In this document: piece by piece, positions 24,854-40,371 of the stretch | How the letters are laid out: each line of letters starts with the position of its first letter | Numbering within the stretch: the stretch's first letter is position 1 | Program-made: the position numbers and the translations under genes | Assembly (NCBI GenBank): GCA_003020985.1 | Contig: PXRM01000022.1 | Span: 62,001 to 126,000 of the forward strand | Length of the DNA stretch: 64,000 nt | Reading direction: 5' to 3' | Source: Halobacteriales archaeon QS_4_70_19 | GTDB lineage: Archaea; Halobacteriota; Halobacteria; Halobacteriales; Haloarculaceae | Notes under the pieces: model-generated | Seen by the model: only the letters and a program-made list of their open reading frames with translations | Databases searched by the model: none | What the model was told of the DNA's origin: nothing

Positions 24854-27800
24854 ATGAGTTACGATCCCGCCGACATCGAGGCCCGCTGGCGCGAACGGTG
24901 GCGCCAGGAGGGGTACTACGAGGCCGACCCCGACGAGGAGGGGGACGCGACGTTCATCACCGTCCCGTACCCCTACCCCTCGGGGGGGATGCACGTCGGC
25001 CACGCGCGCACCTACACGGTGCCTGACGTGTACGCCCGCTACCGGCGACTCCAGGGTGACAACGTCCTGTTCCCCATCGCCTGGCACGTCACCGGCACGC
25101 CCATCATCGGCGCCGTCGAGCGGCTGAAGAAGGGCGAGGAGGAGCAGCTCTCCGTCCTGCGGGACACGTACGACGTTCCGGAGGAGACGCTGCAGGACCT
25201 GGAGACGCCGATGGGCTTCGCCCGCTACTTCATCGAGGAGCACTACAAGAAGGGGCTGCGCCAGCTCGGGCTGTCGGTGGACTGGCGCCGGGAGTTCACG
25301 ACGAACGACGAGCGCTACTCGAAGTTCATCACCTGGCAGTACGAGACCCTGCGCGACCGGGGGCTGCTGGAGAAGGGCCTCCACCCGGTCAAGTACTGCA
25401 CCAACGAGAACAACCCCGTCACCACGCACGACCTGCTGGAGGGCGAGGAGGCGGAGTTCCAGGAGTACACGCTCGTCCGCTTTCGCGACGGCGAGGGAAC
25501 CGTCCTGCCGATGGCGACCCTGCGCCCGGAGACCGTGCGGGGCGTGACGAACGCCTTCGTCGACCCCGACGGCGAGTACGTCCGCGCCGAGGTCGACGGT
25601 GAGGAGTGGGTCGTCTCCCGCGAGGCGACCGAGAAACTGCGGCTGCAGGACCATGACGTGGAGAGCATCGAGGAGCTGGCGGGCGCCGACCTGGTCGGCG
25701 AGCACGTCAGCAACCCCATCACGGAGGACGAGGTACTCATCCTGCCCGCCTCCTTCGTCGACACGGACAACGCGACGGGCGTCGTGATGTCCGTCCCGGC
25801 GCACTCGCCGGACGACTACGTCGCCCTGCGGGAGGCCAGGGAGCGGGCCGACGAGATAACCCAGTACGGCATCGACCCCGACGAGGTCCGGGCCATCGAG
25901 CCCGTCCCCATCCTCACCATCGAGGGGTACGGCGAGATTCCGGCCCGCGACGCCGTCGAGGAGTACGACGTGGAGAGCCAGGAGGACCCCGCCCTGGAGG
26001 AGGCGACCCAGGAGCTGTATAATCGCGAGTTCCACCAGGGCGAACTGCTCAACGCGTACGGCGAGTACGCCGGCGAGACCGTCGAGGACGTGCGCGAGCG
26101 GTTCCGCGACGACTACCGCGAGCGCGGCGCCTTCGACTCGATGCAGGAGTTCACCGGGGAGGTCGTCTGTCGCTGTGGCGGTGATGTCGAGGTCGCGAAG
26201 CAGGAAACGTGGTTCCTGCGCTACAACGACGAGGACTGGATGGCGAAGACGAAACGCGCCATCGAAGGGTTGGACGCCATCCCGGACAACACTCGCGAGC
26301 AGTACACCCACACCGTCGACTGGCTGAACGAGTGGCCCTGTATCCGCAACTACGGGCTGGGGACGCGCCTACCGTGGGACGAGGACTTCGTCATCGAGCC
26401 GCTGTCGGACTCGACCGTCTACATGGCCTACTACACCGTCGCCCACCGCATCCGGGATATCCCGCCGGAGGACCTCACCGTCGACTTCTTCGACACGCTG
26501 TTCTACGGCCCGGACGCGGCCGCGAACCCGGACGAGCGCGCCCTGGAGCTGCGCGAGGAGTGGGACCACTGGTACCCCGTCGACTACCGCGTCTCCGCGA
26601 ACGACCTCATCTCCAACCACCTCACGTTCTACCTCTACCACCACGCGGAGCTGTTCGACGAGGCCAACTGGCCCCGGGGCATCACCATCATGGGGATGGG
26701 CCTGCTGGAGGGCCGGAAGATGTCCTCCTCGAAGGGCCACGTCGTCCTGCCCGGCGAGGCCATCGACGAGTACGGCGCCGACACCGTCCGGTTCTTCCTG
26801 CTCAACAGCGCGGAGCCGTGGCAGGACTACGACTGGCGCGACGAGGCCGTCTCCTCGGCGCACACCCAGCTCCGGCGGTTCTACAACCGCGCGACGGAGG
26901 TGATCGAAGGGTCGCGGGGCGACCCGGACGGTCGAGCGGCGGAGTCGTCCGAGACGGCGGAGCCGTCTCGTGATGACGGAAATCGCGAAACGATTTCCGA
27001 ACCACCGCGAGACGAGCAGGACGCCCCCGACGACCAGCCCGACCTGCGCCCCATCGACGAGTGGCTCCTCTCCAGACTGCAGGGCGTCGTCCGCGAGTCG
27101 ACCGAGGCCCTGGAGGGCTTCGAGACCCGCACCGCCTCGCAGGCCGCCTTCTACGCGATGGAGGAGCACCTGCGCTGGTACCGGCGGCGCGCGGACCTGG
27201 ACCGCCCCGGCGCGCGCTGGACACTCCGGCACGTCCTCGCCCGGCGCCTGCGGCTGCTGGCGCCGTTCACGCCGTTCCTGGCGAACGAACTGCACGAGGC
27301 GCTGACCGGCGAGTCCGCCGAGGACGCCGGCTGGCCGGAGGTGGACGAGGCCCGGGAGGACCCGACCGTCGAGGTCCGGGAGTCGCTGGTCGAGTCGCTC
27401 ACGGACGACATCAACGACATCGTCAACGTGACCGGCACGGACCCCGACGTGGTCCAGGTCTACACCGCCGCGGACTGGAAGCGCAGCGTCTTCGAGCAGG
27501 TGGTCGAACAGGCGTCGCCCCGCGACGCCGACAGGTCGAACGGTGACAGCCGTGAGACGACGGGCCCGGACGTGGGCGCCGTCATGTCCGAAATCATGTC
27601 CGACCCGGACCTGCGCGAGCGCGGGAACGAGGTGAGCGACCTGGTGCAGGAGCTGGTCGAGTTCGTCCGCGAGCAGGAGGACGACCGGCTCGCCATCCTG
27701 GAGGCCGTCGACGAGGCCGACGTGTACGCCGACGCCGCCGGCTTCTACGAGCGCGAGTTCGACGCCGACGTGCGCGTCCTCGGCGAAACCGACGCCGAAG

Positions 27801-37574: not shown

Positions 37575-38381
37575 ATGGCGAACCTCAGGGACCTCGGCCT
37601 GTCGGAGTACGAGGCGCGGGCCTACCGGTCGCTCCTGAAGACGGGCCCCACGACGGCCAAGGAGCTCTCGCGGGTGAGCGACGTGCCGATGGGGCGCATC
37701 TACGACGTGCTCAACAGCATCGAGCAGTACAACCTCGTGCGGTCGCAGTCGGCCAGCCGGCCGAAAAAATACGTCGCCGTCGAGCCGGAGACGGCGCTCG
37801 ACCGGCTGCTGGAGGACAAGAAACGAGAGCTCGAGGAGAAGGCAAAGCAGTACGAGTCCATCGTCGACGAGCTGGAGGGGGAGCTTGAGACGGCCGAACC
37901 CGTCGAGGAGCGGTTCTGGACCGCCGCCGTCGGGGCCGACGAGGCCGCCGACCTCCTGCTCGAACGCATCGCCGCCGCCGACTCGCGCATCGTCATCGTC
38001 CTCTCGACGTACACGGAGCGGTACTTCGACATCCGCGAGGTCGGCAACGCGCTGCTCGACGGGTTGCAGGAGGCGCTCGAACGCGGCGTCGACGTGGACT
38101 TCCTGATGAAGCCGGCGCTGGTGCCGACGCTCCCGCCGGAGTTCGGCGACCGCTACCGCGAGACGCTCAGCGAGTACAGGGGGTTCGAGGTCCGTACGGT
38201 CGAGGACGTCTCGGGCACGTTCACCCTCGTCGACCAGAACGAGGTCGTCATCGAGGTCCCCCACCCGCTCCAGAGCGAGGAGGTGTTCGCCATGCTCAAC
38301 CTCAAGGACCAGGAGTTCGCCGCCAACGTCCGCGAGGAGTTCCGGCCCCGCTGGGAGGCGGCGGAGGAACTGACCCTCTGA
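37575..38381 (+). CDS. TrmB-family transcriptional regulator
   Basis: 268 residues. The N-terminal winged helix reads LGLSEYEARAYRSLLKTG then TAKELSRVSDVPMGRIYDVL, a classic TrmB HTH. A coiled-coil (LEDKKRELEEKAKQYESIVD) and a PLD-like TrmB C-terminal domain (RIVIVLSTYTERYFDI, DVDFLMKP) follow. Many haloarchaeal TrmB proteins control sugar metabolism or redox genes; the ligand is not known. The stop TGA is part of the TGACATCC end of a transposon scar, so the last residues may have been altered by insertion. Confidence 0.88.
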   Translation: MANLRDLGLSEYEARAYRSLLKTGPTTAKELSRVSDVPMGRIYDVLNSIEQYNLVRSQSASRPKKYVAVEPETALDRLLEDKKRELEEKAKQYESIVDELEGELETAEPVEERFWTAAVGADEAADLLLERIAAADSRIVIVLSTYTERYFDIREVGNALLDGLQEALERGVDVDFLMKPALVPTLPPEFGDRYRETLSEYRGFEVRTVEDVSGTFTLVDQNEVVIEVPHPLQSEEVFAMLNLKDQEFAANVREEFRPRWEAAEELTL

Positions 38382-38583
38382 CATCCTCCCACGGCTAAAG
38401 CCGTGGGGTTTCCGGTCACAGACCGGGCAGGCCACGGCGGGAGGTTCCCCACTCGTCCGCGGTGGGGTTGTCGGACTCGGCATCACAACCGGCGTGCGCC
38501 TCGATATTCAACGTTACGCCGGCTGTCGGCTCCATCCCACGACTAACGTCGTGGGCTTTCGCCTCGAACCACTGTAAGTTATA
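38379..38583 (-). mobile_element. IS200/IS605-family scar: tnpB 3' fragment plus right-end hairpin
   Basis: The minus strand reads LQWFEAKAHDVSRGMEPTAG then VTLNIEAHAGCDAESDN, ending RRGLPGL and a stop at 38416-38418. This is recognisable as the C-terminal end of haloarchaeal IS1341-type TnpB. After the stop comes the typical end hairpin CCCACGGCTTTAGCCGTGGG and the terminal GGATGTCA at 38379-38386. Only about 55 codons remain, so the nuclease is dead. The hairpin region is where the omega RNA 3' end would lie in a complete element. Confidence 0.75.
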
Positions 38584-38689
38584 TATACCGCCAGTATCAC
38601 GATCGTAACGGATTTCGTTCAGAAATACTCGCTTCGAGCCAGAAAACCGCCGGAGGGGTACGTTCTGAGAGTGGCTCCGCGCGAGCAGG

Positions 38690-38954
38690 GCGGGACTCCG
38701 TCCCGCTTGCAGTCGGGTGTAACCCGACGACGAAGCGAGCGCGTTTCTCCGGGACGAGGGCGCGCAGCGCCCGAGTGCCGGCGTTTTCTCTGAACGTTTC
38801 TTGCGACATCAGAACGCGGCGCGTTCTGATTGCCCGTGGAATCGCTTCGCGATTCCACAACCGCGGGTGGTTCGTCGGCTCCGCCGACGAACGAATAGCT
38901 GGCCGGCAACGCCGGCCAGCCGGCTCCCGCAGGCTCGCCCCGGAGGCGCGAGCC
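38690..38954. repeat. Array of eight short perfect hairpins, mostly with 3-base loops
   Basis: Consecutive inverted repeats: GCGGGAC/GTCCCGC (38690-38706), GTCGGGT/ACCCGAC (38712-38728), GGGCGC/GCGCCC (38758-38772), TCAGAACGC/GCGTTCTGA (38809-38829), GTGGAATCGC/GCGATTCCAC (38836-38858), TTCGTCGGC/GCCGACGAA (38871-38891), GCTGGCCGGC/GCCGGCCAGC (38898-38920), GGCTCGC/GCGAGCC (38932-38954). Seven have exactly three bases in the loop; the last has nine. Arms differ in sequence, so this is repeated structure, not a repeated sequence. No convincing gene overlaps it. Confidence 0.75.
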
Positions 38955-38985
38955 GAGGACACCCGAGCCGTCGGAGAAGCCCCTG

Positions 38986-40371
38986 TTAGTCGTCGGTTGC
39001 GGGCTGTCGGTCCGGTTCCGACTCGTCCGGTGCGCCCGACCGGGAGGTCGTGATGTAGACCGCCTCCTGGTCGAAAACGAACTCGTCGAGGAAGGCGACG
39101 AGGTAGACGATGCTCTGGAAGAAGAAGTAGAACCAGAGCGTGAACGCCGCGACGTACTCGGCGGGGTGGTGCGAGTAGCCCTCGCGGTAGTCCCGGGCGA
39201 AGATGAGGTACGAGCAGACGGCCGGGGCGGCCCCGATTACGGTCCAGAGGTGGCCGCCGGAGGGGAGGTAGGTGCCACCGTCGAGGACGACCTGGTCGAG
39301 GACGAACAGGGGGGCGACCAGGACTAGCAGGACCGGCACCAGGGCGTAGCTGAAGGTGTAGATGGCGTCGGCGCGCTGGCGGAGGCCGAGCGTGCGGTTG
39401 CGCGAGAGGGGCCCCAGGTGCCGGACGGCGACCTGCATCCAGCCGCGAGCCCAGCGCGAGCGCTGGCTCCACCAGCCCGAGAGGGTCACGGGGTTCTCCT
39501 CGAACGTGAGGATGTAGGGGTCGACCTGGAGGCGCTTGCCGTGGGCGTGGATGCGCGCGGACATGTCGATGTCCTCGACGAGGATCTCCTCGTCGAAGCT
39601 GCCGAGTTCGTCGAACAGCTCGGCGCGGAAGAACGCCTGGCCGCCGCCGAAGATGGTGAACCCGCCGAACACCTGCCGGCCGAACAGGTCCGCGAGTTCC
39701 GCGATGTGGCGTTCGACGGTGGCGTGGAGCGCGAGCACGGAGTCGGTCGGGTTCCGGCCGTAACAGCGGCCCTTGACGCACCAGATGTCCTCGTCCGCCT
39801 CGAACCAGCGGACGGCGCGGTCGACGGCGTCCGGGGCGAACTCGTGGTCGGCGTCGATGCTGGCGATGAGGTCGCCGCTGGCGTACTGGAGCGCGTAGTT
39901 GGTCGCCTTCGCCTTTCCGCCGCCGGGTTCGTCCCGCTCGACGGCCACGACCGCGCCGTACGCCTGCCCGTACCGCCGGGCGATGGCGGCGGTACGGTCG
40001 GTGGAGTCGGCCTCGTAGCAGACGACGATCTCGAGACGGTCGCGGGGGTAGTCGAGGGCGAGGGCGGCCTCGATGGTGTCCGCGAGCACCGGTTCCTCGT
40101 TGTACGCGGGGATGACGACGCTCACCAGCGGCAGGTCGTCGGGCAGGCCGCCGGGCGGGTCGGTCCGGGCGAACGCGAGCAGCGAGCTGAGGTAGGTGCG
40201 GCCTACGAGCCCCAGCAGCAGCAACAGGAGGACAGTCCGGAGGGTCCGCTCGTAGGCGACGGAGACGAACACCGGGAGGACGAGGCCGCCGATCAGGAGC
40301 GTCGCGGTCAGCCCGTAGACCACGACCTTGCGGAGGGAGACGCCGGCCGCATCCGCCGTCTGGACTTTCAT
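38986..40371 (-). CDS. Family-2 membrane glycosyltransferase
   Basis: 461 residues. Two membrane helices at the N terminus (about 18-60), a GT-A domain, and further membrane helices after residue 310. Processive-type GT2 motifs: VVIPAYNEEPVLADTI, the DxD-like ASIDADHEF, the EDIDMSARIH acidic motif, and QRSRWARGW as Q(Q/R)xRW. This set is shared by cellulose/hyaluronan-synthase-like enzymes. It probably makes or exports a surface polysaccharide from a nucleotide sugar; the sugar is unknown. Acidic tail. Complete. Confidence 0.88.
   Translation of the reverse strand: MKVQTADAAGVSLRKVVVYGLTATLLIGGLVLPVFVSVAYERTLRTVLLLLLLGLVGRTYLSSLLAFARTDPPGGLPDDLPLVSVVIPAYNEEPVLADTIEAALALDYPRDRLEIVVCYEADSTDRTAAIARRYGQAYGAVVAVERDEPGGGKAKATNYALQYASGDLIASIDADHEFAPDAVDRAVRWFEADEDIWCVKGRCYGRNPTDSVLALHATVERHIAELADLFGRQVFGGFTIFGGGQAFFRAELFDELGSFDEEILVEDIDMSARIHAHGKRLQVDPYILTFEENPVTLSGWWSQRSRWARGWMQVAVRHLGPLSRNRTLGLRQRADAIYTFSYALVPVLLVLVAPLFVLDQVVLDGGTYLPSGGHLWTVIGAAPAVCSYLIFARDYREGYSHHPAEYVAAFTLWFYFFFQSIVYLVAFLDEFVFDQEAVYITTSRSGAPDESEPDRQPATDD

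Follow-up and report, generated by a model that had tools for sequence, protein, structure and literature searches.

A dispersed, structure-conserved gene-end element of Halobacteria as a candidate bidirectional transcription terminator

Bacterial REP and BIME sequences are dispersed, mosaic extragenic palindromes that often lie just behind stop codons (PMC12306157), traits shared by the haloarchaeal element reported below. For archaeal T-tract terminators, T5C in a reporter ended 95% of transcripts in Haloferax volcanii (PMC7237163), and the likeness to the element lies in a T5 tract that has C or G after it and comes immediately behind genes. Fungal mitochondria contain double-hairpin elements and GC clusters, which are small two-hairpin units in non-coding and structured sites and resemble the modules described here. 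Paired DNA-uptake sequences, which Kingsford et al. in 2007 reportedly found to double as terminators, are likewise repeated inverted gene-end sequences that go with gene exchange. The integron attC site, which has paired RYYYAAC and GTTRRRY core sites, is comparable as a folded site that has a variable end, follows a stop codon directly, and occurs in units of a gene piece plus the site.

The DNA analysed here, referred to as the window, is a stretch of 64,000 nucleotides from Halobacteriales archaeon QS_4_70_19 (GCA_003020985.1, contig PXRM01000022.1). It contains a row of hairpins that is one enlarged, partly decayed copy of a dispersed haloarchaeal element. The best explanation, moderately probable from sequence comparison, is that this structure-conserved gene-end element serves as a bidirectional transcription terminator and spreads by recombination.

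The hairpin row and the element it belongs to

An earlier note on this DNA had described eight consecutive perfect hairpins at 38690-38954, seven with three-base loops, lying before the stop codon of a glycosyltransferase gene. The location, the row and the seven three-base loops stand, and the stop codon of that gene, which lies on the minus strand, is indeed just to the right of the array; "eight perfect" is slightly overstated because the last hairpin is imperfect (90% complementary). The number of hairpins greatly exceeds chance. Six perfect three-base-loop hairpins (arms of at least 6) were observed, against a mean of 0.152 and a maximum of 3 in 1000 sequences simulated from a first-order Markov model of the 326-base array stretch, and the RNA folding z-scores of the array, -6.0 on the + strand and -5.1 on the - strand, were equalled by none of 100 shuffles. 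Elsewhere in the 64 kb there were never more than three such hairpins per 330 bases. Chance or composition as the source of the row was rejected on the Markov sequences and on the hairpin density of elements relative to flanks, given below. Two more strong hairpins, with 9-bp arms and loops of 3 and 5 bases, lie close together at 26950-26999.

A DNA search of the source genome (82% complete) with 38381-38990 returned 52 matches in two independent groups, one to the array, whose copies are mosaic, and one to 38381-38577. The latter is a separate multicopy repeat of two blocks (query 1-94 and 91-197) that lie about 70 bp apart in other copies; it has several copies in this genome, is found partly on plasmids of many haloarchaea, and is presumably IS200/IS605-like, judged by its hairpin ends. 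This repeat is the adjoining tnpB scar of the earlier note, and a link between it and the hairpins is not supported, because other copies of the array lie elsewhere without it.

In family orientation, insert-free copies of the element begin with GCATAC or GCATCC, hairpin P1, TTTCA, and hairpin P2, in which a tandem G.A step is frequent. There follow a T-tract, CTGAACG, a second T-tract that forms the 5' arm of P3, and a CGAG/CGAG step. Hairpin P4, the A-tract-bearing 3' arm of P3, and GCTC complete the element. One arm of the long P3/P4 stem contains T5, the opposite arm A5. The plan is the same in other genera (CCGGCCTTTTTCATGAACGTTTTTCGAGGAG-P4-CCCGACGATGAAAAAGGTTC), and the outer P3 arm varies in paired fashion (GAAC/GTTC, CGAC/GTCG, CCAC/GTGG, CAAC/GTTG). 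In the window copy (Table 1) the left end is degenerate and 3 nt separate the right end from the stop codon of the glycosyltransferase gene, and the uniform row of hairpins arises because three double-hairpin modules are inserted into the simpler element. Its hairpins are intact and no intact T5 tract is left, so termination there is probably weak; among 18 copies in the same genome, + strand T5 tracts number two in 6, one in 6, and none in 6. The persistence of intact hairpins despite T-tract loss may mean that another feature is kept, or that the decay is recent.

Table 1. Features of the window copy and its neighbours (window coordinates)
Feature	Position	Strand	Basis
TrmB-type regulator gene, convergent left neighbour	37575-38381	+	Pfam PF01978
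Whole element copy	38678-38982	+ (family orientation)	own-genome and genus matches; model R1, 71.9 bits
P1 outer stem with CGAG/CGAG step, enclosing module 1	38678-38686/38735-38743 (38678-38743)	+	sequence; simple P1 in 59 other copies
Module 1, double hairpin, just before P1 GNA loop	38687-38731	+	same junction in 14/15 filled copies; orthologous gene ends with and without; also in another repeat family
Module 1, perfect hairpin, arms at least 6, loop TCC	38690-38706		sequence analysis
Module 1, perfect hairpin, arms at least 6, loop GTA	38712-38728		sequence analysis
P2 hairpin, tandem G.A step, GCA loop, one mismatched pair here	38749-38781	+	compensatory P2 stem changes
P2, perfect hairpin, arms at least 6, loop GCA	38758-38772		sequence analysis
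T-tract core, decayed here, T5 gone	38783-38803	+	sequence
Module 2, double hairpin, in P3 arm	38808-38858	+	P3 module in 22/102 copies
Module 2, hairpin readable as 11-bp arms with one-base loop; folds as 10 bp, loop GGC	38808-38830		sequence analysis
Module 2, perfect hairpin, arms at least 6, loop TTC	38836-38858		sequence analysis
Module 3, double hairpin, in P4	38870-38920	+	P4 module in 14/102 copies
Module 3, perfect hairpin, arms at least 6, loop TCC	38870-38892		sequence analysis
Module 3, perfect hairpin, arms at least 6, loop AAC	38898-38920		sequence analysis
Distal P4 hairpin, imperfect	38932-38954	+	sequence
P3 3' arm and tail; A-tract and GCTC decayed (GGAGAAGCCC)	38955-38982	+	comparison with other copies
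GT2 glycosyltransferase gene, stop codon abutting element right end	38986-40371	-	Pfam PF13641/PF00535

The stems of the element are conserved through compensatory change, which does not tell RNA from DNA. An unfitted alignment of 15 sequences (A3) gave a covariation of 0.263 (shuffles, 0.080) and a fitted one of 139 matches (A4) gave 0.469 (shuffles, 0.097). Fitted alignments lean to their own structure, and a few A4 rows are weak matches; a MAFFT alignment (A1) was left out for misaligning the short P4 stems. The earlier note was thus right that structure matters more than arm sequence, and that the hairpins sit at a gene end; compensatory changes were far above shuffles in both alignments. 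Unpaired stretches between the stems are conserved as well. Loops at one position can occur in either orientation between identical arms, as TTC and GAA do in P2. As a separate observation, two core sequence types (GGTGCAGATTTTTT and CTGAACGTTTTTT) were found at the same gene end in different species, as if one had replaced the other (L096, L097, L223, L224 versus L013, L214, L198).

Double hairpins are inserted as a unit at different sites, that is, in P1 (15 of 102 Haloglomus copies), P3 (22), P4 (14), and an unrelated repeat. The P1 module sits exactly before the GNA loop, which is retained, in 14 of the 15; orthologous gene ends occur with and without it (L080/L069, L096/L013, L206/L032), and members of a repeat family unrelated to the element (L071-L073, L076) contain it with 94-95% identity. 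The same modules are carried by a larger, second dispersed family of Haloglomus (L071, L072, L073, L076, L029, L030, L099, L100), several copies of which have CCCTGCCCTTCCCC..GGTCGCGCGG. C-GNA-G is an unusually stable DNA mini-hairpin. Three-base-loop hairpins reach 5.7 per kb in elements (149 distinct in 26.2 kb) versus about 0.5 per kb in flanks (178 in 361 kb); GNA or TNC loops account for 121 of the 149, 140 of which have a C-G closing pair, and for 28 of the 178. On the + strand, simple P1 loops are GNA in 56 and TNC in 3 of 59 cases, a preference found in P1 and P2 and less so in P4, where loops occur in both orientations. A reading of GNA/TNC loops as a sign of DNA-hairpin selection only was dropped for this bias, with which RNA as well as DNA is possible. 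Since the modules land beside hairpin loops, insertion into folded DNA becomes directly testable.

Distribution and placement at gene ends

Model R1, a covariance model of P2 and the T-tract core built from 36 copies, gave at least 28, 35, 37 and 42 matches (E ≤ 0.01) in four Haloglomus genomes (G000-G003), the array being present in three others of the genus besides its own; the per-genome counts are lower bounds in places, and the E-values rough. Model R2, covering P2, P3 and P4, matched 321 of 391 Halobacteria genomes and 77 of 86 genera (E ≤ 1e-4), and in a sample of the phylum matches occurred in 33 of 43 Halobacteria and in none of about 203 other genomes. Of 24 chosen genomes, 23 had at least 4-46 matches each (E ≤ 0.01) and one had none. 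Eighteen cross-genus R1 matches and 28 R2 matches, 26 of the latter outside Haloglomus and some of the two sets being the same places, were inspected, and all follow the plan, a few with a departure in one stem. These covariance models overturned the idea of a Haloglomus-only family, which had come from an exact-pattern core scan (16 of 18 stretches from Haloglomus, and two unrelated bacterial matches); that scan also identified Haloglomus as the genus of the source genome. The element is apparently unrecorded: comparison with Rfam gave no relevant family match, and no description was found in a literature search that most subscription papers lay outside, so that absence is unproven.

Gene context was determined with a gene caller that uses codon scores and had six genes of the window as its training set, for 102 Haloglomus copies (105 R1 matches less 3 second views of the same place), with the right end approximate in 9 of them, window copy included, where the tail was not detected automatically. 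By these gene calls, 96 of the 102 adjoin the 3' end of an opposing gene on the right, with its stop codon at -2 to +5 nt from the tail in 78. On the left, 67 copies adjoin the end of a gene and 32 the start of one, with no gene there in 3, and the left neighbour is convergent at 67 of 99 element sites compared with 29 of 97 control gene ends having a gap of at least 100 nt (p about 1e-7). Of 96 genes that end at an element, 68 have a sense-strand T5 tract beginning no more than 15 nt from the stop codon, as do 3 of 178 other genes. Gene-end clusters are common to two or more Haloglomus species in 26 of 61 cases, e.g., EF-2 (PF00679, L115) and PhoU (PF01895, L201), with stems, loops and modules largely replaced. 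Two genes once named thermosome by eye proved to be FKBP-type by Pfam. At L111:2532-2904 a convergent gene pair has two copies between its members, arranged head to head, and the tail of each copy lies at the stop codon of its respective gene.

Outside Haloglomus, 109 copies were retained from 139 matches once weak matches, echoes on the opposite strand and duplicate views of one site had been removed. TTTTTC is on the + strand in 100 of these and an opposite-strand T5 near the right end in 95. A gene end lies on the right in 58 of 106 distinct copies, 40 of them at -4 to +9 nt, and a stop codon abuts on one side in only 61 of the 106 (gene calls). By inspection only, copies in other genera end at genes with similar-looking last codons. 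Four copies lie directly 3' of tRNA genes (L176, L235, L237, L251). One and the same gene end (..EQYPTYDG..VVERTPL.. when translated) has the element in three genomes (L233, L248 and L172), two of them with duplicated gene ends. A motif like GGGGAAGGGCAGGC, which is the reverse complement of part of the second Haloglomus dispersed family, was seen directly left of the element in six loci of other genera (L173, L182, L185, L242, L245, L246).

From this placement the element probably stops transcription from both sides. RNA polymerase on the right-hand gene would reach a T-tract a few bases past the stop codon, and transcripts from the left would meet the P1 and P2 hairpins and then one or two T-tracts; convergent messages would therefore end without overlap. 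Certain observations fit less easily. The window copy and others in its genome are without T5 yet keep perfect hairpins; in Haloglomus, 32 of 102 copies lack a convergent gene on the left, so a left-hand terminator often would have no gene to serve; and a T-tract alone is enough in Haloferax, so costly conserved stems need another reason. If the interpretation is correct, the element would be a class-wide, common and uncatalogued mark of transcription end between convergent genes (321 of 391 genomes), a poorly known matter in archaea, and would offer ready bidirectional terminators for haloarchaeal genetics.

Gain of copies and competing explanations

New copies of the element have arisen at single genes, in some cases along with a second copy of the 3' end of the gene on the left. 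Of the 109 copies outside Haloglomus, 19 lie between exact direct repeats of 17-74 bp (control maximum 13), whereas no repeats above control were found around Haloglomus copies. When extended, the flanking repeats are mostly duplicates, 32-234 bp long, of the 3' end of the left gene. They terminate at its stop codon or a few bases from it, and 0-9 nt separate the duplicate from the right end of the element; three loci (L316, L289, L256) do not fit this pattern exactly. Tandem arrays were found in G312 (3.3 units of 186 bp, each a gene end plus the element) and G066 (142-bp units). Some genes that have the element in G353 or other genomes are without it in G616 and G109, the empty sites being at two genes in G616, one of ileS type with DUF5915 and one M29 peptidase, and at an M29 peptidase gene in G109; in G230 a truncated element precedes the gene end that is resident at the empty site. 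The paired gene-end copies differ by 30 synonymous and 13 non-synonymous codons over 13 of 16 loci, 3 having been left out for gaps. For the ileS-type gene of G353 the two copies are sisters, 93.5% identical; the event is therefore recent or from a close relative, and a distant donor of the new gene end was rejected.

Copies would spread by recombination carrying a gene-end piece together with the element, the right end of which sets the junction. A more specific proposal is offered tentatively, as possible rather than probable: a transposase-free mobile gene-end cassette, consisting of a gene 3' piece and the bidirectional terminator and formed at the element's right end, would move between related haloarchaea, recombine via the gene piece, give the recipient gene a new terminated end, and push the old end downstream, with the hairpin loops as landing sites for double-hairpin modules. 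Were gene-end duplication the means of spread, non-coding DNA would move without a transposase and without disrupting the host gene.

Copy gain accompanied by gene-end duplication and tandem arrays, the empty sites in sister genomes, the nested modules, and the dozens of dispersed mosaic copies per genome are also consistent with mobile hairpins of the REP/BIME or MITE kind that a transposase mobilises in trans, for which the stop-codon site would reflect tolerance and termination would be a by-product. This is unlikely, however, as the distance to the stop, -2 to +5 nt in 78 of 102 copies, is narrower than would be expected from tolerance, the same gene ends are occupied in several species (26 of 61 clusters), and repeats of 17-234 bp are in general too long and variable for the usual transposases. 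Improbable as well is a non-coding RNA with a defined fold, or a folded stability or binding element in the 3' UTR of the left gene, expressed from the + strand. Strong folding, stem covariation, conserved unpaired stretches, and the GNA loops of P1 and P2 on that strand (56 to 3 TNC in 59 simple P1) point in its direction; against this, the element also occurs next to left genes that are transcribed away from it (32 of 102), is tied to the stop codon of an opposite-strand gene, has P4 loops in both orientations, and has no Rfam match. The "structured RNA" and "recombination site" proposed by the earlier note each hold for part of the element's nature. Functionless hairpins made and kept by template switching that perfects inverted repeats would account for the same-position P2 loops in both orientations (TTC/GAA, same arms) and for window hairpins that stay perfect as T-tracts decay, but are very improbable, since a shared plan, conserved unpaired stretches and stop-codon position recur across genera, flanks have about 0.5 hairpins per kb against 5.7 in elements, and templated mutation as sole cause, also suggested earlier, is insufficient because homologous copies recur at many loci in many genera.

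Comparison with known systems

Like REP/BIME, the element is dispersed as extragenic palindromes, many per genome (at least 28-42 in each Haloglomus genome; 96 of 102 at gene ends); it differs in being archaeal, in its larger fixed multi-stem plan and T-tracts, and in sharing no sequence head. Empty sites in relatives (G616, G109) are a trait of MITEs and transposons that was found, whereas the short fixed-length target duplication was not, repeats being 17-234 bp long in 19 of 109 copies outside Haloglomus. DNA-uptake sequences differ in having a fixed uptake word, whereas the element's stems vary freely with compensation. Unlike the fungal mitochondrial units, the modules are archaeal and GC-rich, with three-base loops, and land beside the hairpin loop of another element. 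The paired core sites of attC were not found, the outer arm varying and helix 3 showing CG/GC and AU/CG changes; the element lacks a conserved AAC/GTT core and carries only a gene piece. With archaeal T-tract terminators the element shares a sense-strand T5 close behind the stop, found in the family (68 of 96), lost in the window copy, and rare at other GC-rich gene ends (3 of 178 control genes); in contrast to those terminators, its tract sits in a conserved multi-stem, both-strand, dispersed family.
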